From NCBI GenBank assembly GCA_008501765.1, contig QQUE01000007.1, forward strand, positions 794,186 through 858,185: 64,000 nt of DNA. Reading direction: 5' to 3'. Origin of the DNA: Calditrichota bacterium (GTDB taxonomy: Bacteria > Zhuqueibacterota > Zhuqueibacteria > Zhuqueibacterales > Geothermadaptataceae). The notes below the pieces were generated by a model that was not told the origin of the DNA, searched no databases, and was given only the letters and a program-made list of their open reading frames with translations. The position numbers and the translations under genes were made by a program. This document shows, in pieces, positions 42,751 through 59,338 of the stretch (position 1 is its first letter; each line of letters opens with the position of its first letter).

Positions 42751-42911
42751 CGTGAGTTCTATGTAAGCAGTAACGTTCTTTACCAAGCATAATTAAAATA
42801 GAGCGAAGGCGTCTCGCCGAGCGTTTCGTGTGTTATCCTCGGCGGGACGCCTTCGGACTATATCCTATAATTAATTCGTTTTGTCCCAATTCTTCTTATA
42901 TCGATTTCACG
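42751..42911. mobile_element. 161-bp MITE-like element, copy 4, with perfect 9-bp target duplication
   Basis: Same family and length as copies 1-3, oriented as copy 3. It is flanked by TTAATAAAA on both sides (42742-42750 and 42912-42920), which is direct evidence of transposition. It ends 68 bases before the M61 peptidase start, so it lies in that gene's promoter or leader. Confidence 0.92.
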
Positions 42912-42979
42912 TTAATAAAATATGCAGGAATCCTTTAATAATTTCCCCAATGAAAGTGTACCATCAAAAAGGGATATCA

Positions 42980-44788
42980 ATGAAAACTATTCAATTTTTA
43001 CTGTTGATTTTGGCTGTTTTCCTTTGTGCAAATCAAGCTGGTGCTGGCGAAAAAATCCATTATCGTATCGTGCCCGGACAGCCAAATGCGCATGTGCTGC
43101 ATATCGAGATGAAGGCGCCGGTCTCCCAACAAGACTTTACAGATTTCCGCATGCCGGCGTGGCGGCCCGGACGGTACGTGACACAAAATTTTGCCCGCAA
43201 TGTTTTAAAGTTCCATGCCCACGACGAAAATAATCTGCCACTGGATTTTAAGAAAATTGACAAAGATACATGGCGTGTACAATCCGGCTCCAGCAAATTT
43301 GTCACCGCAAAATACGAATATTACGCCAACGAATTTGACGCTGGCAACACCTATTTCGATGACCGGGAAATTTACCTCAATCCCATCACCTGCCTGATGT
43401 ACATTCCCGGGCGTGAGTTGGAGCAGGTCGATTTATTCGTTGAAAACAAACAAGACTGGCCGGTGGCCTCCGCATTGAATTTCGAAGCGCAAACAGGCAT
43501 TTTTAGCGCGCCGATCTACCATGAATTGGCGGATAATCCTGTCGTTATCAGCGCACATTTATCGCGTATCAAATTTACAATTGACAACACTGCGCACGAA
43601 ATCATCATGCTCGGGGAATACTGGTACGATGAGAATAAAATAATCGCAGATTTTAAAAAGATGATCGAAAAGTCTGCTGAAATTTTTGGGGAAATTCCGG
43701 CCAAAAAATATGTGTTTTTTTTCCACCTGGTCGATTACCGCAGCAGCCACGGAGTCGAGCATAAAAATTCGACTTCCATCGTCACGGGACCGGCTAATTT
43801 TCACAGCTCCTCATACAATCGCCAATTTCTTGGCGTGACTACACACGAATATTTTCATCTCTGGAATGTAGAACGGATCCGGCCAGATGTTATTTTACAT
43901 CCGGATTATTCGACGGAAAAATACACCGAAACGATGTGGTTTTTTGAGGGCGGCACATCCTATTACACACCGCTCATTTTACGCCGGGCGGAGTTGATTA
44001 CCCCGGAAAAATTCATAAAAGAGTCAGCGTCTGCCATCAATGAATATAGAAAAAACTATGGCCGCAAAGTGACCAGCGCCGCCCACTCCAGCTTCGACAC
44101 GTGGACCCACTCCGTCGGGCGCACACCGCCAAATTCCCAACTCTCTTTTTATCTCAATGGCAAAATTATCTGCATGGCACTTGATCTGGAAATCCGGCAA
44201 CGCACAAAAAATGATAAATCGCTCGATGATGTACTCCGCGATTTGTGGCTTAATTACGGTAAAGATGGCATCGGTATGCCGGAAAATGGGATACAGAAAT
44301 CGGTTGAAAAAATTGCCGGCACTTCATTCAATGCATTTTTCAACGATTATGTTTACGACACAAAAACGGTGGATTTTGAGCGCTACCTCGGTTATGCGGG
44401 CTTTGAAGTAGTGCACGACCTGAAAAAGGACAGCTCGAAAACCTACACGGGATTGCAACTTTCAGGCGATAAAAAACAAACGATCATCAGCAATGTGACA
44501 CCCCACTCCCCTGCCTGGAAAGCCGGGATTGACATCCGCGACATTCTGATCGCAATTAACGGCAGGCGCATTCATCCTAAAAATTTCAAGGAATTTGTTG
44601 GAAATTTCACGGCGGGTGATTCACTTAAAATTTCAGTGCTGCGCAAAGAATATTTGCGTGAATTTACGCTGAAACTGGAATCTCCACCGGATGAGACACG
44701 TACGATTAAAATTATTCCTATGGACAAACCAAACAATTTGCAAGCCATTATTCAGAAAAGCTGGGCCGGGAAAATTAATGCAAATTAG
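42980..44788 (+). CDS. M61-family aminopeptidase with PDZ domain
   Basis: This 602-residue secreted peptidase has a signal peptide (MKTIQFLLLILAVFLCANQ), an N-terminal beta domain, a zinc site HEYFHLW with the downstream Glu in WFFEGG, and a C-terminal PDZ domain (about 500-580) of the M61 glycyl-aminopeptidase type. I chose ATG 42980 because a signal peptide and AAGGGA ribosome site support it; the frame reaches back into the MITE but that part is not real. It acts in the periplasm or outside. The substrate is unknown. Confidence 0.93.
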   Translation: MKTIQFLLLILAVFLCANQAGAGEKIHYRIVPGQPNAHVLHIEMKAPVSQQDFTDFRMPAWRPGRYVTQNFARNVLKFHAHDENNLPLDFKKIDKDTWRVQSGSSKFVTAKYEYYANEFDAGNTYFDDREIYLNPITCLMYIPGRELEQVDLFVENKQDWPVASALNFEAQTGIFSAPIYHELADNPVVISAHLSRIKFTIDNTAHEIIMLGEYWYDENKIIADFKKMIEKSAEIFGEIPAKKYVFFFHLVDYRSSHGVEHKNSTSIVTGPANFHSSSYNRQFLGVTTHEYFHLWNVERIRPDVILHPDYSTEKYTETMWFFEGGTSYYTPLILRRAELITPEKFIKESASAINEYRKNYGRKVTSAAHSSFDTWTHSVGRTPPNSQLSFYLNGKIICMALDLEIRQRTKNDKSLDDVLRDLWLNYGKDGIGMPENGIQKSVEKIAGTSFNAFFNDYVYDTKTVDFERYLGYAGFEVVHDLKKDSSKTYTGLQLSGDKKQTIISNVTPHSPAWKAGIDIRDILIAINGRRIHPKNFKEFVGNFTAGDSLKISVLRKEYLREFTLKLESPPDETRTIKIIPMDKPNNLQAIIQKSWAGKINAN

Positions 44789-44899: not shown

Positions 44900-45766
44900 T
44901 CAATAACCAACGGCGAGAATGCCTCCGTTCGTCGTTTTAAGTTCTATTCTGCCCTCACCGTTGCCCAAGGTGCCGCGCATCGAGCGTGGTGAGGAAACCA
45001 AATCCTGCAAGGTCAGGCCGCGCAATGAAATTTCGCCATTTGCAACGCTGGCAGTAAAATCCGCTGAAGTCGTTTTGGGTATTTGCAGCTCAATTCCGCC
45101 GTTCACCGTGGCCAATTTGCAGCTGCGATCGATGGCAAATTCCATCTGCGTAAATATGATGCCGTTGGTCAATTCTACTTCGACATCGCCGTCAATGCCA
45201 CGCAAATCAGCGTTGCCGTTGGTCAAATCGACGTTCACAGTACCGATTACGTCCGTCAAATTTATATTGCCATTGGTTACATCGACATGTACATCGCCGA
45301 CGACCGAATCGATGGTCACGATTCCATTGGTTAGCTCAACTGTTACATCCCAGTCTGATGGAATACGAATTTCATATTTTACTTCGTATTCCCGGCCGTC
45401 GCTGCTGCTTGGCTGCTCTGTTTCGATGACAAAGGTCGATCCCATATCGCGCAGGTTCATCTGCAGACGCTCCAGTTGCTCATCCGCATCCCGTTGACTG
45501 GTGGAGCGCACAGTTCGCTCACCGGTGATCTCGATTTCATCGAGACCGCTGATCCCGTACACTTCCACAGGACCGTTGACATTATCAACTTCCAGACCAG
45601 TATGCCCAGCCACGGCCACACGTAAGTTTATGGGATCCGAAGCTGTAAATCGTTTGTTATCATCCGTCCCGATTGTATTATTTACATCACAAGCAGTTTG
45701 AAAAATGAGCATACTGAGCCCGGCCAGCGCCAGGGGAAGACGCTTCAAAATCATTGTAATTTTCAT
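44900..45766 (-). CDS. DUF4097-type beta-solenoid lipoprotein
   Basis: This 288-residue lipoprotein has lipobox FQTAC (Cys26). The mature part has the DUF4097 repeat pattern: short strands with repeats of TNGNINLTDV, TNGNADLRGI and TNGIIFTQM that make a beta-helix. AAAGGAAA precedes the ATG. Members are thought to be surface or adhesin-like, but the role is not proven. It is a single gene with a terminator. Confidence 0.88.
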   Translation of the reverse strand: MKITMILKRLPLALAGLSMLIFQTACDVNNTIGTDDNKRFTASDPINLRVAVAGHTGLEVDNVNGPVEVYGISGLDEIEITGERTVRSTSQRDADEQLERLQMNLRDMGSTFVIETEQPSSSDGREYEVKYEIRIPSDWDVTVELTNGIVTIDSVVGDVHVDVTNGNINLTDVIGTVNVDLTNGNADLRGIDGDVEVELTNGIIFTQMEFAIDRSCKLATVNGGIELQIPKTTSADFTASVANGEISLRGLTLQDLVSSPRSMRGTLGNGEGRIELKTTNGGILAVGY

Positions 45767-45940: not shown

Positions 45941-46657
45941 TTATCGTTTTAAACGCATTATGGCTTTTTCTGTTTTCTCGCGACGAAAAAGCGATTGTTC
46001 ATCGATACATTCGCTCGCAAAATTCATTTTGATGGAATTGGAATACGCCTCCAAAGCCTGGCCTTCGTTTTCCAACCTTTCAAAGGCTTGTCCAAGAAAA
46101 TAATATATTTCACCGCAATCTTTCACTTCAACATAAGTTTTCAAGGTTTTATGAAATTTCACGATGGCATTGGTGTAATATTTTTGCTCGAGCAAATCGA
46201 TGCCGCCATTGCGGTGCTGTTGCCATGCCTGCTCGAGAAGCGGATTCGTTACTTTTTCCACAACACTGTCTTTTTTTTCACCGTGCAAAACGTTGACATT
46301 GCTTATCCGCAACTGTCCTCCGGACTTGCGCTGGGGCAATTTTTCGATCTTTTCCGAGGTGATGAGAAGAAAAAGTTCCTTTCGCGAAATTCGGCGCAAG
46401 TCTGCGATATCGAGGATGGCATTGGCACCAAGAATAAAATTATTTGCTTCTGCCAGCGCCAATTTTACACGACTCTTCTCACCAGTTAAAATTGTATCAA
46501 TCGTTTCCAATACCATTCCTGTCCGGGCCAATTGCCAATGTTCGTCCAAACCGCGGCGAACTTTCACATCCCCGCTCAAGTCTGTAATTCGTACTGAGCT
46601 ACTGGCAAAAAGACAATGAGAAAAGAGCAGTGCAAGCAAAATTATTATTTTTTTCAT
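45941..46657 (-). CDS. exported FecR-like / TPR protein
   Basis: This 238-residue protein has a signal peptide (MKKIIILLALLFSHCLFA), a FecR-like domain (about 22-110: SVRITDLSGDVKVRRG, TGEKSRVKLAL) and C-terminal TPR-like helices (about 140-225). FecR-like domains often occur in envelope proteins outside iron signalling. I chose ATG 46657 since GGACGAT lies upstream; ATG 46669 is possible. No sigma factor gene is near. Confidence 0.75.
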   Translation of the reverse strand: MKKIIILLALLFSHCLFASSSVRITDLSGDVKVRRGLDEHWQLARTGMVLETIDTILTGEKSRVKLALAEANNFILGANAILDIADLRRISRKELFLLITSEKIEKLPQRKSGGQLRISNVNVLHGEKKDSVVEKVTNPLLEQAWQQHRNGGIDLLEQKYYTNAIVKFHKTLKTYVEVKDCGEIYYFLGQAFERLENEGQALEAYSNSIKMNFASECIDEQSLFRREKTEKAIMRLKR

Positions 46658-46701
46658 ATGATCGTCCATTTCTTAAGACTGGTTATTCCAATTGTGAAAA
46701 T

Positions 46702-46891: not shown

Positions 46892-48496
46892 TCAATGATG
46901 ATCGATAATCCGCACCCAACCATCAGCCAAACCGTTGCGCATTTTGCCATCCTGCAAATATGTCATTGCACCACTGCGCCAGGCATCTTCAAATCCCTGA
47001 TTGATGAGCGTCGCTTCCACCGGAATCCACACCGTACTACGCTCCCCCTCACGCAAGCGGATAACGTATCGCTTGTCGTTTGAGGAGACACGGAAACCAT
47101 CGGCAGGTGAAACGCCGGTATCGAACATTAAATAGACGTGCGCAATCGGTTTTTCGGGGTCATTAACTTCCACGAACGCTGTGCGGATACCCACACTTTC
47201 GAGCAGGGTTGCGTACAAAATCACCAAATCATCGCAATCGCCGCTGCCGCGTTCCAATGTTTCCTGTGCGTATTGTACGCGGTCGTCCATATAAAACGGG
47301 ATATTGGGATCGGGGTGGTAGCGCAAATTCTGTTGCACCAAATCTGAAAATATCGCTTTGGCCATTTTAAAATTATCCGGTTGCACAGTCGGTTCCTGAT
47401 CTGATTTTTGTGCAATACTGCGGGTATAATTTCGAATTTCCCTGTCTTCCGGCGTGAGGAACACACCGAGCTTGTCAATGGCGCCATCCCAGGCGTTGCG
47501 GCTGTGAACGGTCACCTGCGCACTGGCGGATTTTTTTACCTTATGCCCTGCTTTGCCCTCAACTTCGATATCGAGCACGACATCGCGGCGGTGGGAAACA
47601 TTGTGCAATTTTGCACCGAGCAGGGAATATACCGGGATATCGCGGGTGCGGTTTTTACGAATCTTAAAATAGCCGCTATTTTTCGGGCGCACAGAAAAAT
47701 CCTGTACCTTCGAACGCAAATTGACTTCGATATCGTAGCCCGCTGTATTTTTTATCGTTACAAGGGCAATTGGGTATGTATTGTAAAATTGATAATAAGC
47801 CGGATAAATATCCTGAGCAATCACCCGGACATTCTGAATTTGAAACATTTCTTTTTTAGCGCCCCACATGATAACAAAACCAAGGCTGGACTCAAGGCCG
47901 CTAAAATCATCTTCCATTTCATAGTTTATAAAATGGTGTTTGACATCAAAATTAAATGCGAACCAACTTGCCAATGTCAAATTAATGCCGCCGCCGGCAT
48001 ACCAACCAAGGCGCATTCCGGTTTCAACGAGGACTTCATTTTCGACTACATTTTGGGATTTACCCTGAATTTCAGTATTCCAATAGGGTCCACCACCAAT
48101 GGTCAAATACGGTTGAAATGAGGTCGGAAGTTTGCCCGGCAATAAATCCCAACGCAATCCGAAGAGCAAAGGAATGACCATGGAAACGCCGTCGTAATCA
48201 TCGGAATTATAACTCCAGGTTCCTGCGGCAAATGCACCCAAATGGGTTTCGAAAAAGATATTGCTCTGAAACCGCGAAACATAATAAATGTAGGAACCAA
48301 AACCGTTCATCGAAACCGTTGATGTGACCTCCTGCGAATTCGTCGTAAGCTTGAAGCGCGAAGTCTGGTTGGTGATATTCCAAAAAGCCACGCGAAAACC
48401 GAGACCGGATGACCGTGAAATGCCTTGTGCCATTGTGTTTGAAGTCATTACGAGCATCCAGCCTGCGAACAAGATAATAAGTCTAACGCTTCTCAA
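46892..48496 (-). CDS. outer-membrane beta-barrel fused to a transglutaminase-like domain
   Basis: This 534-residue protein has a signal peptide, an eight-strand-type barrel (about 28-213, ending at WG), an Ig-like beta linker (about 215-335) and a C-terminal transglutaminase-like domain (about 375-500). The catalytic triad pattern is visible: Cys421 in GSGDCDDLVILYATLLESVGI, His453 in IAHVYLMFD and Asp459. The enzyme part would be outside or under the outer membrane. The start is TTG (48496) with GGGAG upstream; the paralogue gene is 19 bases upstream. The barrel domain is similar to that paralogue, so one arose from the other by fusion. The substrate is unknown. Confidence 0.85.
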   Translation of the reverse strand: MRSVRLIILFAGWMLVMTSNTMAQGISRSSGLGFRVAFWNITNQTSRFKLTTNSQEVTSTVSMNGFGSYIYYVSRFQSNIFFETHLGAFAAGTWSYNSDDYDGVSMVIPLLFGLRWDLLPGKLPTSFQPYLTIGGGPYWNTEIQGKSQNVVENEVLVETGMRLGWYAGGGINLTLASWFAFNFDVKHHFINYEMEDDFSGLESSLGFVIMWGAKKEMFQIQNVRVIAQDIYPAYYQFYNTYPIALVTIKNTAGYDIEVNLRSKVQDFSVRPKNSGYFKIRKNRTRDIPVYSLLGAKLHNVSHRRDVVLDIEVEGKAGHKVKKSASAQVTVHSRNAWDGAIDKLGVFLTPEDREIRNYTRSIAQKSDQEPTVQPDNFKMAKAIFSDLVQQNLRYHPDPNIPFYMDDRVQYAQETLERGSGDCDDLVILYATLLESVGIRTAFVEVNDPEKPIAHVYLMFDTGVSPADGFRVSSNDKRYVIRLREGERSTVWIPVEATLINQGFEDAWRSGAMTYLQDGKMRNGLADGWVRIIDHH

Positions 48497-48515
48497 CCCT
48501 CACTCCCAACTATTT

Positions 48516-49172
48516 TTAATACCGTGTGCGATAGCGGCCCCACATAAAACTCACGCCCAAACCAAAATCGAAACCGCTGTAATCGTGTTTCACATTATAA
48601 TCAATAAAATGATATTTTGCATCTAAATTTAAGGCTAAATTGGGTGTTAAATGAAAATTAAATCCGCCGCCGGCATAACCGCCCGGTTCAAAATTTGTAT
48701 TGACGATCACTTCGTCCTGATCGTATCGGTACTCTTCAACATGCACATCGCTGATCCAGTAAGCCCCGACACCGAAAGTGAGAAATGGCCGCAGCGCACT
48801 GTAACTGCGCGGGTGCATTAAATCCTGGCGAAATCCCAATAAAAAGGGTGTGATTGCCGAGACATCAACATTTTCGGAATTATGATAATAACTGTCTGCT
48901 TCCACCTGGCCAATGCCACCAAGGTTGAATTCCACAAACCAGTAATCATCGACACGGGAGAAAAAATAGAGCCAGCCTCCTGCCCCGCCAACATGGACTT
49001 CGTCGCGATCGCTCGAAGTGGTAATTCGAATACCGGCATCGTTTTTATTCATATTCCAAAAACTGCCGCGAACGCCAAAGCCGGAATTTTTTGGTTTGTA
49101 CTGTGCCTGTAAAGCAGTTGCCAACAATAAACTCCCTGTGATTAATACTAAAAGTCCAATTTTTCGTTTCAT
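48516..49172 (-). CDS. outer-membrane beta-barrel protein
   Basis: This 218-residue exported barrel is a paralogue of the N-terminal domain of the next gene: GYAGGGFNFHLTPNLALNLD here against WYAGGGINLTLASWFAFNFD there, and SFMWG against VIMWG at the end. It is of the OmpA/OmpW-like eight-strand size. AGGAG precedes the ATG. It is the first gene of the pair and lacks any added domain. Confidence 0.88.
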   Translation of the reverse strand: MKRKIGLLVLITGSLLLATALQAQYKPKNSGFGVRGSFWNMNKNDAGIRITTSSDRDEVHVGGAGGWLYFFSRVDDYWFVEFNLGGIGQVEADSYYHNSENVDVSAITPFLLGFRQDLMHPRSYSALRPFLTFGVGAYWISDVHVEEYRYDQDEVIVNTNFEPGGYAGGGFNFHLTPNLALNLDAKYHFIDYNVKHDYSGFDFGLGVSFMWGRYRTRY

Positions 49173-49565
49173 ATTTTTGCTCCTGATATTTGATTTTGTG
49201 ACAAAAAGGATAATTGCTAAAAAATTTTCAGTGCAGTGCTTTTATCAACTTTTATTCAAACTCGATGCCAGAATTAATTAATCGATACAAAAACAATAAT
49301 ATCAAAAATTTGGAGCATGTTTACCGGGAGAACCAAATCTGCGGAATTTTTAGAACTGCGGAAATCCTCCGCGCAAAAGCAGGGATTTTATAGCATACTC
49401 CATCCTCGAATCCGGAAGTAAATTGGAATGATTCCAGAATTGCAATTGAGTCATTTATTGCTTGCATTTTTAAATTTAATATCCTTTATTAATTGCCAAA
49501 ATATAGTATTTTCATTTTTCGCAGAATTATGAATCAAACCAAATTCAAAAATTTCCAGGAAATTC
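49173..49565. other. gap holding two divergent promoters
   Basis: About 393 bp between the barrel gene on the minus strand and the oxidase genes on the plus strand. No gene is supported. The promoter of the cytochrome operon should lie here, but no box was clear enough to name. Confidence 0.4.
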
Positions 49566-50945
49566 ATGCAAACCAATATTATATATTCCAAACGTTGGCT
49601 CGCAGTAGCTATTGGTGCGTTGATGACGGGCGGATTGTTATCATTGATATTGGTCATAGGACGTGTCCCATTTATTAATACGTTAATTACCGATCCAAAT
49701 TTTGCCAAGAAGTGTCTCATCGTTCATGTAAATCTCTCTATTTTTGTCTGGTTTTCAGCCTACATTGCCGGTTTGTTCCAGCTTATTCCCGAGTCGAAAT
49801 TTCATATATTTTCCCGTTCATCTGTCCTTTGGGCTGCCATAATCGGGCTGGTTTTGTTGGTCATCACACTCGTCATTCCCGATGTTGAACCGATTTTATC
49901 AAATTACATTCCTGTGCTGAATCACCCGTTCTTTTTCGCCGGATTAGGGCTGTTCGCATTGAGTGTTTGCGTAGCATTTCTCGACGCCAGACTTTTCAGT
50001 TCCTTCACCTCAACATTAGAAAACGCGCACAATGCAATTCCCTCTGCAGCAGTCAACGGGATAAAAGCCGCCGTTGTGGCATTTTTACTGGCCGTGATCA
50101 CCTTCGGCATTTCCTGGTTTTTCATCGATAAATCTGTGGCGCCCGATTTATTTTTTGAATTGCTCTTCTGGGGTGGCGGCCATGTTTTGCAGTTTGCCAA
50201 TGTGCTTGCGATGTTGGTCGCCTGGATTTTTCTCGTTAAAAAATTGACTGGCAGTGAATTTATTTCAAAAAAAATAAGCACTGTTCTTTACATCGTTTTC
50301 GTATTGCCATTATTTATCGCGCCGTATTTCGCCAGCCAGATTCAATCCCCCGGAATATATCTGAGTAAATTTACAACCCTGATGCAACATGGTATTTTTC
50401 CGATTGTGTGTCTGTTTATTATTCTGGCGATCAAAAAAATCTTCGAATCAAAAGCTACCGGGAAAATGGACTCCGGGCAAATCCGTTCATCTGCGTTTAA
50501 CGGATTTGCCGCCAGCGTAATTTTAATATTAACCGGATTTATTTTTGGAGCGCTGATTCGAGGTTCCGACACCATGATTCCAGCACATTACCACGCGGCT
50601 ATCGGGGCTGTGACCGTGTCTTTTATGGCAATGACTTATGAACTTTTTCCGCGATTTTCTCTGGAAATTCCATCTGAAAAATTGCAGAAACTGGCTAATT
50701 GGCAACCGGCCATTTACGGCATTGGACAGTTTCTTTTTGCAGCCGGTCTGGCTTATGCACGCATGCTGCGCAAGGTTTATGGCGAGGAACAGATCGTCAA
50801 TTCTGTTTCACAAAAAGTGGGGCTGGGAATAATGGGATTTGGCGGATTGCTGGCAGTAACCGGTGGTGTTTTATTTATCTGGATTGCCCTGCGCACGTGG
50901 TGGAACCGTAGCCCACAGGCTAAGCTCGTAACTAACGAATTTTGA
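49566..50945 (+). CDS. divergent heme-copper oxidase subunit I-like protein
   Basis: This 459-residue protein of about 12 membrane helices resembles subunit I of heme-copper oxidases (cbb3/NorB-like). Candidate heme ligands are His54 (HVNLS) and His343 (HYHAA, with His341). CuB ligands are incomplete: His206 in the helix-VI position, with one His (275) instead of the pair in helix VII. It may be a catalytically inactive assembly or electron-transfer protein, or a distinct enzyme. It heads the operon with SCO and the caa3 genes. AGGAA lies before the ATG. Confidence 0.75.
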   Translation: MQTNIIYSKRWLAVAIGALMTGGLLSLILVIGRVPFINTLITDPNFAKKCLIVHVNLSIFVWFSAYIAGLFQLIPESKFHIFSRSSVLWAAIIGLVLLVITLVIPDVEPILSNYIPVLNHPFFFAGLGLFALSVCVAFLDARLFSSFTSTLENAHNAIPSAAVNGIKAAVVAFLLAVITFGISWFFIDKSVAPDLFFELLFWGGGHVLQFANVLAMLVAWIFLVKKLTGSEFISKKISTVLYIVFVLPLFIAPYFASQIQSPGIYLSKFTTLMQHGIFPIVCLFIILAIKKIFESKATGKMDSGQIRSSAFNGFAASVILILTGFIFGALIRGSDTMIPAHYHAAIGAVTVSFMAMTYELFPRFSLEIPSEKLQKLANWQPAIYGIGQFLFAAGLAYARMLRKVYGEEQIVNSVSQKVGLGIMGFGGLLAVTGGVLFIWIALRTWWNRSPQAKLVTNEF

Positions 50946-50983
50946 TAAAATAAAAATAGATATAAACTAAATTGGAGTAAAAG

Positions 50984-51802
50984 ATGAACATCTTTCATCT
51001 TCTAAATCGAACTAAAAAAGACATTCTCACCAATTTTATCATTTTGATTGGGATGTTATTTTTTCTGACGAATCAGAGCCTCGCTCAAATTCAGCCGGGC
51101 AATGAGATTGTCGGAATTGATGAAAAGCTGGGAGAAATGGCTGATCTCAATTTTACATTTGTCAACTCAAAAGGAGACAGCGTCAATATCGCCAAACTGG
51201 TTGACCGGCCGACAATTCTCAACTTTGTCTATTTTAATTGCCCCAGCATCTGCACCCCGATTTTAAACGGCTTGCAGCGGGCCCTCAACAACCTCGATCT
51301 CGAAGCCGGAAAAGACTACCGCGTTCTGACAATCAGTTTTAATAAAGACGAAGATTTCAAACTGGCAAATCAGAAAAAGCTCAACTATTTGAAAAAATTC
51401 TACACGCCATTTCCAGAATACGAATGGGTCTGGCTTACAGGCGACAGTACAAATATTGAAGGAATCACCAGCACGGTTGGCTTCAACTTTAAACGCACAA
51501 AGGATGATTTTGCCCATTCAGCCGCACTCATCGTTTTATCCGGCGAAGGCAAAGTGACAAGGTATTTATACGGCACTTATTTCAATCAATTTGATCTTAA
51601 AATGGCCATAATTGAAGCGTCGGAAGGGCGCGTCGGACCATCCATCGCGAAAATGCTCAAGTTCTGTTTCAGCTACGATCCTGAAGGCCGTCGCTATGTT
51701 TTTAACTTTCTTAAAATTTCGGCCAGCTTCATAATCGGATTTGTTCTCATTTTCGTTTTTGCTGTGGGAGTTCGGTCGAAAAAAGGAAAACAGGAAAGTT
51801 GA
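50984..51802 (+). CDS. SCO1/SenC-family copper chaperone
   Basis: This 272-residue protein has an N-terminal membrane anchor/signal, a thioredoxin-like domain with CPSICTP (the copper-binding CxxxC) and His in FAHSAA, and a C-terminal membrane helix (about 242-262), which is less usual. It delivers copper to the CuA site of subunit II. GGAG precedes the ATG. It lies between the subunit-I-like gene and ctaD. Confidence 0.93.
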   Translation: MNIFHLLNRTKKDILTNFIILIGMLFFLTNQSLAQIQPGNEIVGIDEKLGEMADLNFTFVNSKGDSVNIAKLVDRPTILNFVYFNCPSICTPILNGLQRALNNLDLEAGKDYRVLTISFNKDEDFKLANQKKLNYLKKFYTPFPEYEWVWLTGDSTNIEGITSTVGFNFKRTKDDFAHSAALIVLSGEGKVTRYLYGTYFNQFDLKMAIIEASEGRVGPSIAKMLKFCFSYDPEGRRYVFNFLKISASFIIGFVLIFVFAVGVRSKKGKQES

Positions 51803-51885
51803 TCTTTGGCGGGTTGGGATTCTAAAGTAAATAAAAAAATACACTCTTTGCTGGGTGATAAAGTAATAATTATTTAGGAGGAAGT

Positions 51886-53517
51886 ATGCCGAGTCATACT
51901 TTGGACGATACAGTGCAAAACGGAGAGAGCTATCTCGATGTGAAAGGCCGATACACCGGCGTTTTCGGCTGGATTTTTTCCGTCGATCACAAGAGAATTG
52001 GCCTTCTTTATTTGGGCTCTGTATTTGTCTTTTTTACCGTGGGAATTCTGTTGGGACTTTTCATGCGCCTTGAGCAAATGACAATGGGCGAAACGCTGAT
52101 GACAGCCACAACTTACAATCGCTTGTTTACGTTGCATGGCGTCATTATGATATTTTTGTTTATAATTCCGGGAACCGCCGGCACGCTGGGCAATTTCTTT
52201 TTACCGATTCAAATTGGCGCCAAAGACGTCTTTTTCCCCCGGCTTAATTTACTTTCCTGGTGGCTCTACATTGCGGGTGCCGTGATGGCACTGCTGGCCA
52301 TTTTTACAGGGGATGGAATGGCCGATACAGGTTGGACATTTTATGTGCCATACAGCACGCAAACAGGTACCAATGTAACCCTGGCGTTAACAGCCGCATT
52401 CATATTAGGATTTTCCTCAATTCTAACCGGTCTGAACTTTGTCGCCACCATTCACCGGATGCGTGCTCCAGGCATGAATTTTCATCGCATGCCGCTTTTT
52501 GTCTGGAGTTTGTACGCCACCGCGTGGATTCAAGTCCTCGCCACTCCCGTGGTTGGCATCACGCTGGTTTTAGTAATTTTGGAACGCACATTGGGTATCG
52601 GAATTTTTAATCCAGCCATGGGCGGTGATCCGATTCTGTATCAGCACTTATTCTGGATTTATTCGCACCCGGCCGTGTATCTCATGGTTCTTCCTGGCAT
52701 GGGCGTTATCTCGGAAATCATTCCAACTTTTTGCCGCCGCACCATTTTTGGCTACAAAGCGATCGCATGGTCAAGTGTGGGAATCGCTGCTGTTGGTACA
52801 TTGGTTTGGGGACACCATATGTACGTCAGTGGGCAAAGCAGCACAGCAAGTATCGTTTTTTCTTTTCTGACGTTTTTTGTCGCTATTCCGACGGCTATTA
52901 AAGTATTTAACTGGGTCGCAACAATGTACAAAGCTTCAATTCGTGTCGAAGTCCCATTTTTATACGCTCTTGCATTCCTCTTCCACTTTCTTATTGGTGG
53001 ATTAACCGGCCTGATGATGGCAGCGATTTCAGTGGACGTGCACGTCCACGATACCTATTTTGTCGTTGGCCACTTTCATTATACCATGTTTGGCGGATCC
53101 GTTTTTGCACTTTTTGGCGCGCTCTATTATTGGGGTCCGAAAATGTGGGGCCGGATGTACCACAATAAAACCGCCATCGTTGCATTGGTGCTGCAATTAA
53201 TCGGTTTTAACACACTCTACATGACAATGATGTATCTGGGCTATCAGGGCATGCCGCGCCGCTATTTCGACCACTTGCCGCAGTTTCATGATGCCCATCT
53301 CGTAGCAACATTCGGCTCCTGGTTTCTTGTTTCCGGCCTTTTATTGATGATTGGCACCCTCCTGTACTCGGTTTTTCGAGGGGAAAAAGCTCCGGCTAAT
53401 CCCTGGGGAGGAACCACGCTTGAATGGCAAATTCCAACCCCGCCGCCATTGGAAAATTTTGATGAAATTCCAACGATAACCGACGAGCCGTACGCACACA
53501 AAGAGGAGGCCGTATAA
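51886..53517 (+). CDS. ctaD: cytochrome c oxidase subunit I (caa3, A2-type)
   Basis: This 543-residue catalytic subunit has 12 membrane helices. The helix II heme ligand is in TLHGVIM. The helix VI motif is YSHPAVY: the HPxxY with the cross-linked Tyr, and the YS of A2-type oxidases in place of the Glu. Helix VII has WGHHMY and helix X has [12 protein letters not shown]. It reduces oxygen to water with proton pumping. AGGAGG precedes the ATG, and the stop overlaps the ctaE ATG by one base. Confidence 0.97.
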
Positions 53518-54311
53518 TGAGTAATCATGCAGCAACAATGGTCGCCCACAAACACCCCAGTGATGTTGAAGGTGCAAAAATTGGAATGTGGTTATTTCTC
53601 TTCACTGAAGTATTACTCTTCGGCGGATTGTTTATCGCCTATGCTGTTTATCGATCGGTTTATCCCGAAGCGTTTCAAACAGCCGCAGCCAATCTGGATA
53701 CATTCATCGGCGCTGTAAACACGCTTTTTTTGCTCACGAGTAGCCTGACAGTCGTGATTGCGATCGTTGCGTTGCAAAAGGACAAGCAAAAAATGGCCGT
53801 GTGGATGATTTGGGCAACTGTCCTTTTTGCCCTCGGATTTATGGTCAACAAATATTTCGAATGGAGTGCAAAAATTCATCACGGGATTTATCCGGGCTCA
53901 CCCGAGCTTTTAGCCGATCACAGCAAAGGCGAAATCGTCTTTTATAATTTGTATTATACGATGACCGGCCTGCACGGATTGCACGTGATTATTGGTTTGA
54001 TCGTCTTCTTTTTTGTGCTCTATTTTATCAAGCGCCGACCAGTTGTAACCGAAGAAATGCCTTATGAAATTTTAAAGAATGTGCGTGGAACTTCCCGTCT
54101 TGCCGTGGTTTCAGAAAAAGGCGAAGAACTCGGGACAGTTGCCCAACTCGATGACAAGGTTGAGTTGGTCGATATCCGTCTGACTTATGAACCCGTCGCC
54201 GAAAAAAGGGATCCCCGCAATTTCGTAAAACTTGAAAATGCCGGACTCTATTGGCATCTGGTCGATGTTATCTGGATTTTCCTTTTTCCACTTTTCTACC
54301 TCATTACATAG
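53517..54311 (+). CDS. ctaE: cytochrome c oxidase subunit III, with loop insertion
   Basis: This 264-residue membrane protein has the COX3 features [24 protein letters not shown] and the last helix [12 protein letters not shown]. The usual bacterial form is near 200 residues; an extra soluble segment of about 65 residues (172-238) separates the last two helices. The ATG overlaps the ctaD stop (TAATG), so they are translationally coupled. Confidence 0.95.
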
Positions 54312-54327
54312 AAAGGAAATTAGACCT

Positions 54328-54609
54328 ATGCATGAAAATGAACATGAAATGAAATACAGTACCTATATTTATGTGTGGCTGGCATTGGTAGTTTTAACCT
54401 GGGTGACAGTCGCTGTGGCCAGTATTGATTTCGGCAACGCGGCCGTATTTGTAGCGCTTCTCATCGCTGCGTTTAAATCGTCGCTGGTTGTCGCCTGGTT
54501 TATGCACCTGAAAAATGAATCTGCTACCATAAAATGGATGGTAGCGACATTGTTCATCGTATTTGCCATTTTTATCGGTATCACCTTTACGGATTACCCG
54601 TTTAGATAA
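54328..54609 (+). CDS. ctaF: cytochrome c oxidase subunit IV (small subunit)
   Basis: This 93-residue protein has three membrane helices and the prokaryotic COX4 motif KSSLVVAWFMHLK. I start at ATG 54328 (MHENEHEMKYS), with AAAGGAAA 10 bases upstream; the frame is open earlier but overlaps ctaE. It stabilises the oxidase complex. Confidence 0.9.
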   Translation: MHENEHEMKYSTYIYVWLALVVLTWVTVAVASIDFGNAAVFVALLIAAFKSSLVVAWFMHLKNESATIKWMVATLFIVFAIFIGITFTDYPFR

Positions 54610-54624
54610 AAACAGGTGATAGGA

Positions 54625-54689
54625 GTTAGGTTTTAGGTGTTGACCTTTCATATTTGGACAGCACTAAAAACCAGCGCCTGAAATCTAAC
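54625..54689. repeat. short inverted repeat between ctaF and ctaC
   Basis: GTTAGGTTTTAGGTG (54625-54639) and, reversed, GTTAGATTTCAGGCG (54675-54689) match at 12 of 15 positions. It may be a hairpin in the mRNA that adjusts the ratio of the subunits, or a degenerate repeat of the genome. Confidence 0.4.
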
Positions 54690-54734
54690 AACTTAAAACT
54701 AAAAACTAACCTTTTTAAAAAATAAGGAGAAACT

Positions 54735-55658
54735 ATGCTCTCAGGTGCATCCAGTTTTGCATCACTTGTCGATGATGCATTTTTCTTCATCCTGATTATC
54801 TCGATCATCTTTTTTGTTGGCATCGTCGCAACCATGCTCTTTTTCGTCGTGCGGTATCACCATACACGAAATAAAAAAGTTGCAAATATCGAAGGCAATT
54901 TGACCCTGGAAATTGTCTGGACAGTGATTCCGACTCTATTGGTTATGGGTATGTTTTATTATGGATTTATCGGATACGACACCATGCGTAACGTGCCGGA
55001 TGACGCGATGGAAATTACCGTCACCGGCAGAAAATGGTCCTGGACATTTACCTATGAAAATGGATTTCAGGCAACAACTTTGACGGTTCCAAAAGGCAGA
55101 GCTGTCAAAGCGAATATCGAATCCGAAGATGTCATCCACAGTTTTTACATCCCGGCTTTTCGCGTCAAACAGGATGCCGTACCCGGCCGTGATACTTATT
55201 TGTGGTTTCGTGCGACGGAAACCGGCACTTTCGATATTCTCTGTACTGAATTTTGTGGCGACCGCCATGCCTATATGTTGTCAACTGTTGAAGTTATGTC
55301 GGAAAGTGATTACAATACCTGGTATGCCGGAACCAGTGGCGAGCAAATCACCGAAGGCGGCGATCTTAGCGCTGCCGGTGAAAAACTTGTTACCTTGAAG
55401 GGTTGTATCGCCTGCCACAGCATCGACGGCTCACCACGGATTTCGCCTTCATTTAAAGGGCTTTATGGCAAAATGGAGACTGTTTATACGGACGGCAAAG
55501 AACGGCAGGTTCTCATCGACGATGCCTATATTGCGAAATCAATCAAGGAACCTGCTGCTGATAAAGTAAAAGGATTCGAAAATATTCCAATGCCACCGCA
55601 GCCCCTTTCTGATGATGAAATTAAAGCCATTACTGAATATTTGAAATCGATTAAATAA
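54735..55658 (+). CDS. ctaC: cytochrome c oxidase subunit II fused to cytochrome c
   Basis: This 307-residue protein has two membrane helices, the CuA domain with CTEFCGDRHAYM, and a C-terminal class I cytochrome c domain with CIACH (heme c) and a Met ligand near MPPQPL. This fusion is the mark of caa3-type oxidases. No signal peptide of the classical kind is seen before the first helix. AAGGAG precedes the ATG. It comes after I, III and IV, an order that differs from the common II-I-III. Confidence 0.96.
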   Translation: MLSGASSFASLVDDAFFFILIISIIFFVGIVATMLFFVVRYHHTRNKKVANIEGNLTLEIVWTVIPTLLVMGMFYYGFIGYDTMRNVPDDAMEITVTGRKWSWTFTYENGFQATTLTVPKGRAVKANIESEDVIHSFYIPAFRVKQDAVPGRDTYLWFRATETGTFDILCTEFCGDRHAYMLSTVEVMSESDYNTWYAGTSGEQITEGGDLSAAGEKLVTLKGCIACHSIDGSPRISPSFKGLYGKMETVYTDGKERQVLIDDAYIAKSIKEPAADKVKGFENIPMPPQPLSDDEIKAITEYLKSIK

Positions 55659-55925
55659 ATCGCGATTCGAAGGGGGATTTTTTAATTCTCCCTTTGAAGG
55701 GAGACGATTTGTGCTCGTCAAGAGTACGGATTAGAGGGATGTTACTCCTCAATTTACGAGTTTTCCACATTTATAGCATCCTAACTTGACGCGAATGCGA
55801 CCGCTTTTATCGGGAATCCATTTGTTTTGAACTCGACTGGACTTGGATTCCGTCTAAAAGCATGACGGAATGACGAAATTTGAATACCTACTTTTATAAT
55901 AAGATGAAAAGGCGATCTGCCAACA
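55659..55925. repeat. hairpin-rich gap between ctaC and ctaB
   Basis: GGAATCCA (55813-55820) and TGGATTCC (55844-55851) form a hairpin followed by TGACGGAATGACG, the style of dispersed palindromic repeats in many genomes. An inverted stretch with CCCTTTGAAGGG lies near 55690. No gene is supported. Confidence 0.5.
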
Positions 55926-56792
55926 ATGAAAAACTGGACTAAAATCCTGCTCGAATTGAGCAAAATTCGTATCTCCACCCTGGTTGCCATGTCCACATTT
56001 GTGGGATATATTATGGCAACCGGCCGCTTCGATTTGGCAGGCATCGTCGCCGTTTTGGGCACATTCATTCTTTCGGCGGGGTCTGCCGGTTTGAATCAGG
56101 TGCAGGAATGGAAGCTCGACAAAAAAATGCATCGCACCTGTGATCGCCCAATTCCTGCAGGGCTCATTTCACCGCGGATGGGCCTGGTCATTTCAACGGT
56201 GCAGATGCTGCTAGGGTGTTTAATTCTCTGGATTGGCAATAATCCGGCAACCATGGCCCTGGGTTTGTTCAATATTTTCTGGTACAATGGCATTTACACG
56301 CCCTTGAAGCGGGTAACGGCCTACGCCGTTTTTCCCGGTGCACTCATCGGCGCCATTCCCCCGGCAATCGGCTGGGTTGCGGCGGGCCGAAGCTTATTTG
56401 AACCACAAATAATTATCGTTGCCTTCTTCTTTTTTATCTGGCAGATTCCCCACTTCTGGTTGCTGTTGCTCAACCTCGCCCGGGATTATGAGCGTGCAGG
56501 TTTCCCCACCCTTGCAAGTATATTCAGCGATAAACAATTGGCCCGGCTCACATACGTTTGGACTATCGCCACAGCGCTGATCAGTTTGATGCTGCCACTC
56601 TACGGCATCGGAAACTCGTTTTTTATTTACGCCTGCCTGACTTTTACCACATTCTGGCTCATTTGGGTCAGTCGTGGCTTGCTGCGATTTACAATTTCGG
56701 AAACCATTTTTAAAACAGCTTTTATGAATATTAATATCTATATGCTGCTGGTAATGACGAGTGTGTCGCTGCAGGTTTTGATCTGGGGATAA
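55926..56792 (+). CDS. ctaB: protoheme IX farnesyltransferase (heme O synthase)
   Basis: This 288-residue membrane prenyltransferase of about nine helices has the Asp-rich motif NQVQEWKLDKKMHRTCDRP, where farnesyl diphosphate binds. It makes heme O for the oxidase encoded just upstream. Heme A synthase (ctaA) is not in the window. No ribosome site is clear at the ATG. Confidence 0.95.
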   Translation: MKNWTKILLELSKIRISTLVAMSTFVGYIMATGRFDLAGIVAVLGTFILSAGSAGLNQVQEWKLDKKMHRTCDRPIPAGLISPRMGLVISTVQMLLGCLILWIGNNPATMALGLFNIFWYNGIYTPLKRVTAYAVFPGALIGAIPPAIGWVAAGRSLFEPQIIIVAFFFFIWQIPHFWLLLLNLARDYERAGFPTLASIFSDKQLARLTYVWTIATALISLMLPLYGIGNSFFIYACLTFTTFWLIWVSRGLLRFTISETIFKTAFMNINIYMLLVMTSVSLQVLIWG

Positions 56793-56839: not shown

Positions 56840-59338
56840 TCATACATCTCTTTTCTCCGCCAAATAATCCAGCACCGCATCCAGCGCGGGGTGAAATTTT
56901 TTCGGCAGGCCTTTGTATTGCGCGTGGCCGGGGTCTTTTTGCGTCGGATCGAGATTTGATAGATAAGATTCGAGTTTGTTTTGCACGCGCTGTATTATCT
57001 CCGTATCGTTGGTTCCTGCAAGTGCAGCAGCTGATTTGGCATAATCATTTTCATTTTCAACAAGAAATTGAAAACACAAGCCGCGGTAGTATTCGGTAAT
57101 AGTGCCGCGATCTTTATTGCCCAAAAAACGCGCTGTCTCGCTGATAGCGGAACGGGAAAATTCAAATTTTCGTAACGCGTGCAGCACTTGTTCTTCGAAT
57201 GGTTTGTAATCGACACCACTCCCCTTCTCCCCCCCGGAAGTCAGAATCTCCTCAGGCAAATGTTCCTGCTGAATGATGCTATTGTGTTCACTTTTCGCCA
57301 ACAAACCCATACGGCGGACGGTATTTTCCAGTTCCCGCACATTTCCCGGCCAGGCATAAAAACAGAGATTATCCAAGGCAGCTTTGGAGATTTTTAGCTC
57401 GCGATAATCGTGTTTATCGAGAAAGTGGCGCACCAACACAGGGATATCGACTTCCCGCTGCCGCAGCGGTGGGATGTCGATGGGAAAGCCATTGAGCCGG
57501 TAGTATAAATCAGCGCGAAATTTTCCTTCATCCACCTGTTTTTTGATATCCTGATTGCTGGCCGCGATGCAACGCACGTCGATTTTAATGCTGCGCTCCC
57601 CACCCAATCGTTCCAATGTTCCATCCTGCAAAACCCGCAGCAATCGCGCCTGAAAAGCAGGGCTGGTTTCCGTAATTTCATCGAGAAAAATGGTGCCGCC
57701 ATCGGCCAGTTCAAAGCGGCCACGCCTTAAATTTTGCGCCCCGGTAAAAGCCCCTTTTTCATGGCCAAATAGCTCGCTTTCCAACAACGATTCTGAGAGA
57801 GCGCCGCAATTCACGGCGATAAACGGTTTGTTTTTTCGCCGACTTTGCGCATGAATCGCCTGCGCTAAAACCTCTTTCCCGGTGCCGGTTTCGCCTTGAA
57901 TTAATACGGGAATATCATCATCACTGATTTTCTGCACCAAATTGACAACTTCAGCCATCGGGCTATCTGGTGCATAAATCAGATTAGCGATTTTAAATGA
58001 TGCTTTTTGTCCCGATTCCGGCTCATCAAAAGCTTGTAAATCGCGCAGTTGTTTTTCCAGCTCGATGACTTTTTTCTGTTTTTCGATGATGGCCAGCTCA
58101 TTTTCCTGCGAGGTCTCACTGTTCTTTTGCTGCTCTGCAAGGCGTTGTTTTTTAATTTCAAACATTTCAGTCTCCGCCGCAGCCACTCGTTGTTGTGCCT
58201 GATTTATCTCTTTTTTCAATAATTTGGTCCGGAGAGAAAGTGCTGATTTCACCTGGTTTTCTTTCTGTCGATACCCTGCAATAAAGAACAGCAAAAAGCC
58301 GGTAACCGGCCAGAAAACCGGGATAATTGTTAACTGGAAAACAAAGAAATAACAGGATAGCACAATATAGATCGACACAATAAATAATGGCCAAAAATAG
58401 GGCGGTTGCCTCTCATTTTTAGCCAGAATAAGCCATGCCAGAAGACAAAGCGAAATTATTATCAATGCCCGTAAAAACCACGGTAGCGATTGCAAGTAAT
58501 TTTGTTTTAATATATTCTCCGCTACATTGAGATGAATGAACGATGCTGGCACAGCGTCGGCAAATGGCGTCCGCCGCACAATCGGCAAACCGGGTGCAAC
58601 CGGTGCGATGAGTACGAGTTTGCCCTGCAGTTCCAGCTCAGCAGCATCCGTGCGCAGCGCATGTAAAAATGCGACAAAACTAATCCCGTGCACAGTTTTT
58701 GCAAATCCGGCAAAGTTGATTTGCATTGAGCTCGAAGGCGGCAGTAATTCGTTAAATTCTCTGGTTGAATCGACGCCCATTTCCTGTGCCAATACCAGTC
58801 CGAATGAATTGAATACAAGGCTATCTTGTTTAATCTGCACCGGGACGTTGCGGATTGTCGGCTCATCACCGAGATTGGCAAAACCGGTTGCTTTCGCAGC
58901 CTCATTCAGCCCGGGAAAAGGGGTAATTACTTCCATTTTCTCAATCTCATTTTTGCCAGGCAGGCTATTGATAACAAGCGGCAGTATAACGTTCGAGGAG
59001 GCCGCCGTAATTTCGACCAGCGACTTGTCATATTCTGCAAACAGTTCATTTTCAGTGGCAAAAAAAACATCGATGGCTACAGCGCGAGCCCCTGCTTTCG
59101 TTGCCTGATGAATAGCGTATCCCCAATAATCCCGGCTGAGTGGCCAGCCGCCGAGGGATGAAATATCTTCCTCATCGAGATAGACAAATAGCACATTCTC
59201 CGGCAATTCACGCTCACCCCGAATTACAAAATAGGAATCGAGTAGCAGATTATCCAGCGCTTGAAAAAATGACCATTGCGGGATTGCACCTAATGTCAAC
59301 AAAAATGCAATAATCGGTAGCATGTATTTTTTGAGCAT
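56840..59338 (-). CDS. membrane-bound CHASE2-sigma54 activator
   Basis: This 832-residue protein has a signal-anchor, a CHASE2 extracytoplasmic sensor domain (about 28-285), three membrane segments (about 288-306, 314-336, 340-355), a coiled coil (about 360-437) and a sigma54-interacting AAA+ domain (about 447-700; Walker A GETGTGKE at 482-489, GAFTGA at 529-534, FLDEI). The C-terminal part (705-832) has no standard Fis helix-turn-helix that I can see, only a weak HTH-like segment. A CHASE2 domain joined directly to an enhancer-type ATPase would be one-component sensing at the membrane. The gene converges with ctaB. Confidence 0.9.
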   Translation of the reverse strand: MLKKYMLPIIAFLLTLGAIPQWSFFQALDNLLLDSYFVIRGERELPENVLFVYLDEEDISSLGGWPLSRDYWGYAIHQATKAGARAVAIDVFFATENELFAEYDKSLVEITAASSNVILPLVINSLPGKNEIEKMEVITPFPGLNEAAKATGFANLGDEPTIRNVPVQIKQDSLVFNSFGLVLAQEMGVDSTREFNELLPPSSSMQINFAGFAKTVHGISFVAFLHALRTDAAELELQGKLVLIAPVAPGLPIVRRTPFADAVPASFIHLNVAENILKQNYLQSLPWFLRALIIISLCLLAWLILAKNERQPPYFWPLFIVSIYIVLSCYFFVFQLTIIPVFWPVTGFLLFFIAGYRQKENQVKSALSLRTKLLKKEINQAQQRVAAAETEMFEIKKQRLAEQQKNSETSQENELAIIEKQKKVIELEKQLRDLQAFDEPESGQKASFKIANLIYAPDSPMAEVVNLVQKISDDDIPVLIQGETGTGKEVLAQAIHAQSRRKNKPFIAVNCGALSESLLESELFGHEKGAFTGAQNLRRGRFELADGGTIFLDEITETSPAFQARLLRVLQDGTLERLGGERSIKIDVRCIAASNQDIKKQVDEGKFRADLYYRLNGFPIDIPPLRQREVDIPVLVRHFLDKHDYRELKISKAALDNLCFYAWPGNVRELENTVRRMGLLAKSEHNSIIQQEHLPEEILTSGGEKGSGVDYKPFEEQVLHALRKFEFSRSAISETARFLGNKDRGTITEYYRGLCFQFLVENENDYAKSAAALAGTNDTEIIQRVQNKLESYLSNLDPTQKDPGHAQYKGLPKKFHPALDAVLDYLAEKRDV

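Follow-up and report, generated by a model that had tools for sequence, protein, structure and literature searches.

An outer-membrane barrel that carries its own enzyme domain raises the questions which reaction this domain might catalyze, on which side of the membrane it works and what controls its synthesis. Such a protein is encoded by gene Q in the window analyzed here, which is the whole stretch of 64,000 nucleotides. To our knowledge, outer-membrane proteins with an enzyme domain of their own on the periplasmic side are uncommon.

Domain build and distribution of Q

The initial annotation described a barrel, a beta linker and a papain-like catalytic domain in one chain, a build that was unfamiliar to it. 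The analysis of the full-length protein arrived at the same arrangement, and a literature search turned up no description of this architecture. The gene is read from a TTG start codon (ORF reading) and is divided as follows:

46892..48496, minus strand: gene Q, 534 aa, with signal peptide, barrel, Ig-like linker and cysteine-enzyme domain (Pfam, alignment, AlphaFold, Foldseek)
Residues 1-25: signal peptide of Q, cleavage near AMA-QG
Residues 30-211: 8-stranded barrel of Q (AlphaFold model and Foldseek)
Residues 218-335: Ig-like linker of Q
Residues 340-532: transglutaminase/LapG-like cysteine-enzyme domain of Q with Cys421, His453 and Glu494

The Pfam scan of Q detected no barrel family. Here, the N-terminal part was recognized by structure prediction, as had been proposed: AlphaFold places an 8-stranded barrel at residues 30-211 of the full-length model (pLDDT 83.6), and Foldseek relates it to OmpA, NspA, OmpX and OmpW (probability 1.00, target TM about 0.6). 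The model therefore has the features of the OMP_b-brl/OmpA-like class, namely eight strands and N- and C-terminal barrel ends that lie together on one side. The enzyme part is identified by Transglut_core (PF01841) at residues 373-447 with 28.3 bits against a gathering cut-off of 23. Throughout, family names denote profile matches and not tested functions.

Most or much of Q was found in 30 of 82 genomes of the phylum, and two further genomes contain only its C-terminal fragment (G060) or its barrel part (G044), both apparently cut by contig ends. Full-length or nearly full-length orthologs with 42-77% identity are present in 26 genomes besides the source genome (G000), together with partial ones, and because of these orthologs Q is a real fusion of barrel, Ig-like linker and transglutaminase-fold domain and not a chance product. 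A search of contigs returned two loci only, both from the same genus; the nearest named records are MAGs, for example 'Calditrichaeota bacterium isolate CLD5', and a tblastn search of plasmids with Q gave no match. In one locus (L013, G056:C156), the ortholog is interrupted by a single in-frame TAG stop between the barrel and enzyme parts, which is either a pseudogene or an assembly error.

The catalytic domain and its relatives

In an alignment of 24 Q orthologs, Cys421, His453 and Glu494 as well as D404, D420, D422 and D423 are invariant. A wider set of 34 members was obtained by adding ten linker and enzyme domains from differently anchored proteins. Across its three barrel types Cys421, His453, Glu494, D396, D420 and D423 are conserved in 34/34 members, with an identity to Q of the window of only 22-79%, and position 422 is Asp or Glu, resulting in the motif GDC[D/E]D. 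PF01841 matches 33 of these members at E<=0.1. The linker and enzyme part was modeled with a pLDDT of 92 and a pTM of 0.85. In this model a helix begins at Cys421, a strand begins at His453 and Glu494 follows the next strand, which is how these elements should succeed one another in a transglutaminase fold. Cys421 occupies the nucleophile position of a papain-like site, as the initial annotation had assumed. Of its Cys-His-Asp triad, the first two residues stand, while the third has to be corrected to Glu, since Glu494 is invariant in both the 24- and the 34-sequence alignment.

Among solved structures, the family profile matched solely the LapG chains 4fgo and 4u65 in the PDB, weakly (E 0.014 and 0.025) and along the segment Y-DP-DD-E-GDC[D/E]D, and phmmer with the single Q sequence retrieved nothing from the PDB. 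Foldseek with the linker and enzyme part returned LapG with a probability of 1.00 and up to 21-23% identity, amid human transglutaminases 2 and 3 and PNGase. The NCBIfam LapG profile matches 4 of the 34 members. No member of the family alignment matches PF06035 (LapG/Peptidase_C93) at E<=0.1, and no PF06035 gene was found in G000. Due to the missing PF06035 match Q is not filed as LapG, and with Glu in place of Asp an assignment as canonical LapG was rejected.

For DvhG, a protease of the LapG family, D316 and E318 beside C317 have been shown to be essential for Ca2+-dependent cleavage (PMC13090378). In Q, D420 and D422 hold the equivalent places around the cysteine, so that acidic residues flank the nucleophile here as well. 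As judged from sequence, the enzyme core resembles calcium-dependent LapG, and the acidic residues 420, 422 and 423 probably bind Ca2+. Like the LapG/DvhG proteases of the BTLCP type (Peptidase_C93), which have their Ca2+ site at these flanks, Q would combine a transglutaminase fold, Cys and His, acidic flanks and a periplasmic location. Unlike them, it comes with an outer-membrane barrel of its own and an Ig-like linker, has Glu at the position of Asp and does not match PF06035.

The initial annotation left open whether the domain is a protease or a ligase. A protease is favored, as the profile search gives LapG proteases as the nearest relatives of solved structure. It is not very likely, yet worth keeping in mind, that the domain acts as a genuine transglutaminase, ligase or isopeptidase, cross-linking or trimming peptidoglycan or proteins of the envelope near the outer membrane. 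This would agree with the Pfam label Transglut_core and with the transglutaminases 2 and 3 and PNGase among the Foldseek matches, whereas the PDB profile search points to LapG proteases only and both the GDC[D/E]D motif and the acidic segment upstream of it are LapG-like.

The pair of linker and enzyme domain was also observed in other architectures. In a second family (L058-L066, e.g., L064:3462-6149), a PorV/UPF0164-like barrel is followed by the same Ig-like linker, the transglutaminase domain and C-terminal TPRs. Its neighbors are CHASE2-CHAT, CHASE2-sigma-54 or WD40-caspase proteins as well as propeller proteins whose ends are of the FlgD/T9SS type. A third form of 629 aa (L057:1350-3907) contains a barrel-like N-terminus, linker and enzyme, and its gene is followed by that of a 218 aa protein without Pfam match, which appears FecR-like by eye. 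Furthermore, the NCBIfam model NF058533 (anti-phage ProA, 1903 positions) matches the linker and enzyme part in 34/34 members (best E 1.3e-16; 46892-47854 in the window). This suggests that linker and enzyme occur together in a defence protein as well. Since Q of the window scores 38-40 bits against a cut-off of 1500, the match reflects the shared domain pair only, and Q was not assigned as an anti-phage ProA. A literature search for ProA as a defence protein found nothing.

The recurring association with CHASE2 speaks for a signaling role of the linker and enzyme module. One could go further and regard the catalytic site as degenerate and the domain as a binding or signaling module, for example a ligand receptor for a CHASE2 activator. 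The association of the same module with CHASE2 proteins in the second family would fit, as would the replacement of the canonical Asp by Glu in every member. But Cys and His are invariant in 34/34 members at 22-79% identity, which is not expected if catalysis had been lost, making this explanation quite unlikely.

Operon, promoter and CHASE2 activator

Gene Q is part of a conserved operon with a sigma-54 promoter, an activator site and a CHASE2-sigma-54 activator, which was missed by the initial annotation. The control region and the activator gene lie outside the segment that it covered. The following features were identified:

44900..45766, minus strand: LiaG-like protein of 288 aa with Toastrack (DUF4097) domain, possibly a lipoprotein (QTAC)
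45941..46669, minus strand: periplasmic protein of 242 aa with FecR/LapA-retention-module-like domain and TPR (profile matches)
48516..49172, minus strand: gene B, 218 aa, which heads the operon and encodes an OMP_b-brl barrel paralogous to that of Q but lacking the enzyme (Pfam, homology)
49255..49270, minus strand: site TGGCATCGAGTTTGAA, which resembles a sigma-54 -24/-12 promoter and precedes the start codon of B by 98 bp, conserved in orthologous loci
49340..49373, minus strand: activator-type site at a distance of 103 bp from the -24 element, made up of the dyad CGCGGAGGATTTCCGCA and a third half-site, TTCCGCA
56840..59338, minus strand: membrane-bound CHASE2/sigma-54 AAA+ activator, 832 aa

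Several neighboring ORFs derive from a simple longest-ORF caller, so that some of them are extended too far at the 5' end, while antisense ORFs mask a few genes. Gene B, the upstream gene, is a barrel of the same kind without the enzyme, just as first described: OMP_b-brl (PF13505) is matched with 35.4 bits against a cut-off of 28.7, and its barrel is homologous to that of Q, with about 35% identity. The order CHASE2 protein, B, Q, FecR-like TPR protein and DUF4097 protein is kept, with variations, across many families of the phylum. In this genus, a cytochrome oxidase-type cluster (49566-56792 of the window) splits B from the CHASE2 activator, and in other families the unit is contiguous. Directly beyond the operon, an M61 glycyl aminopeptidase with PDZ domain is encoded on the opposite strand (42881-44788 of the window); among the loci read, it occupies the same place only in L037 of the same genus.

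The FecR-like TPR gene lies directly 3' of Q in most orthologous loci. Its product matches the Retention_LapA profile in 14/21 orthologs, weakly (best E 1.4e-4). This match is suggestive, since LapG cleaves next to that module. The FecR profile (PF04773) was matched by 3/21 orthologs only, with a best E of 0.065, and a canonical FecR is thus unsupported. A PDB profile search gave nothing convincing for the FecR-like part and TPR proteins for the TPR part. In LapG systems the protease is accompanied by a LapD/c-di-GMP receptor and acts on a giant adhesin with a LapA retention module, which the neighbor of Q resembles. In contrast, no LapD/c-di-GMP receptor was seen in the Q operon, the neighbor is no giant adhesin, and it shows no conservation of [T/A/P]AAG, the motif of LapG-type cleavage, with one chance-like case in 21.

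Upstream of the sigma-54 site, the conserved dyad TGCGGAA-N3-TTCCGCA is followed by the third half-site, and the composite pattern has a single match in the 5.9 Mb genome G000, at the Q operon. Repeats and sigma-54 site occur together in 20/22 loci with 0 to 5 mismatches of 21, compared with 5 to 7 of 21 in single shuffled control sequences. The distances from repeat to promoter (102-103, 111-115 and 124-126 bp) are roughly one helical turn apart. A strict -24/-12 pattern precedes 15/19 barrel-only ORFs versus 5/205 other genes of the same loci. As rpoN is also present in G000, the -24/-12 promoter, upstream dyad, AAA+ activator and sigma factor of a sigma-54 regulon are all in place, with binding being a prediction.

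In many relatives the activator gene sits beside gene B; in G000, and likewise in several relatives, it is tied to the operon by co-occurrence and not by adjacency. For the search in 82 genomes its C-terminal part outside the common AAA+ domain was used, and one genome with weak matches to barrel and activator (G040) was counted as lacking both. The activator was found at strong E-values in 32/32 genomes with Q and in 1/50 others (G013). Fisher's test gives 6e-22, a value that is too small because the counts span related genomes of one phylum and are not independent events. From these patterns we infer that the CHASE2 activator binds the TGCGGAA-N3-TTCCGCA repeats.

Further copies of repeat and sigma-54 promoter were noticed in relatives (L103, L105-L109), where they head TonB-dependent receptors (with DUF4249), DUF4097 genes, barrel and GIN-domain genes as well as barrel-only genes. 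In G013, which lacks Q, they head a TonB-receptor-like fragment.

Orientation and putative function

In the 8-stranded model, the N- and C-terminal ends of the barrel lie on one side. The three turns on this side are constant in length across orthologs, while the four opposite loops vary by 5-10 residues, which is how periplasmic turns and extracellular loops usually behave. Because both barrel ends lie with the fixed-length turns, the enzyme domain should be periplasmic. The initial annotation had named surface and periplasm as alternatives; barrel geometry supports the latter, and a surface location was rejected on the same topology. An outward-facing enzyme acting at the cell surface in adhesin processing, as a protease or as a defence factor, for which the outer-membrane location and the TonB receptors and GIN-domain proteins in the regulon of relatives could be cited, is very unlikely with both barrel ends periplasmic and the variable loops opposite. 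Here, Q is similar to OmpA-type proteins, in which an 8-stranded barrel precedes a periplasmic domain; theirs binds peptidoglycan, whereas Q carries the cysteine-enzyme module instead.

Taking sequence and model evidence together, we consider it fairly probable that Q is an outer-membrane-anchored periplasmic cysteine protease, probably Ca2+-dependent, in an envelope-response operon controlled by the CHASE2-sigma-54 protein. The barrel would serve as anchor, as in OmpA, and the Ig-like linker would hold the LapG-like catalytic domain (Cys421-His453-Glu494) in the periplasm. Q would be made along with the second barrel B, the periplasmic FecR/LapA-retention-like TPR protein and the Toastrack protein, once the membrane-bound activator, acting from the repeats about 100 bp upstream of the -24/-12 promoter, switches on the operon. 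Most likely, the operon would sense and remodel the envelope by cleaving a partner that resides in the periplasm or is tethered to the outer membrane, and this partner might be the retention-like neighbor. Operon and circuit thereby look like a self-contained envelope-sensing and processing system, and this may suggest how LapG-type periplasmic proteolysis is wired in organisms without canonical LapG.

CHASE2 is a common sensor domain. With the putative barrel protease, the FecR/retention-like TPR protein and the Toastrack protein it gains concrete partners as well as a defined promoter, and due to this the CHASE2 signal becomes testable. A broader role as part of a new class of trans-envelope surveillance systems seems unlikely: here, the barrel-Ig-transglutaminase module would detect damage of or attack on the outer membrane and signal to CHASE2 proteins, with the sigma-54 activator as output in this family and, in the sister family, proteases of the CHAT or caspase-like kind, possibly including an anti-phage function.

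Two known systems share parts with the Q operon. The sigma-54-type control by PspF of E. coli is a parallel on the side of the Psp/Lia envelope stress systems, and no PspA or PspC was seen in the operon. Like these systems, the operon encodes a Toastrack (DUF4097) protein, and Toastrack proteins have been tied to membrane stress responses; those of Psp/Lia are described as intracellular (PMC11237479), whereas the DUF4097 protein found here starts with an export-signal-like segment. In BiofilmReg of Burkholderia (CHASE2 and FecR-LysM operons), the gene for a CHASE2 sensor likewise accompanies that for a periplasmic protein with a FecR domain. This CHASE2 protein is a histidine kinase paired with a response regulator (PMC5192318), whereas the one found here is itself the sigma-54 activator, and barrels and an enzyme are present in the Q operon.
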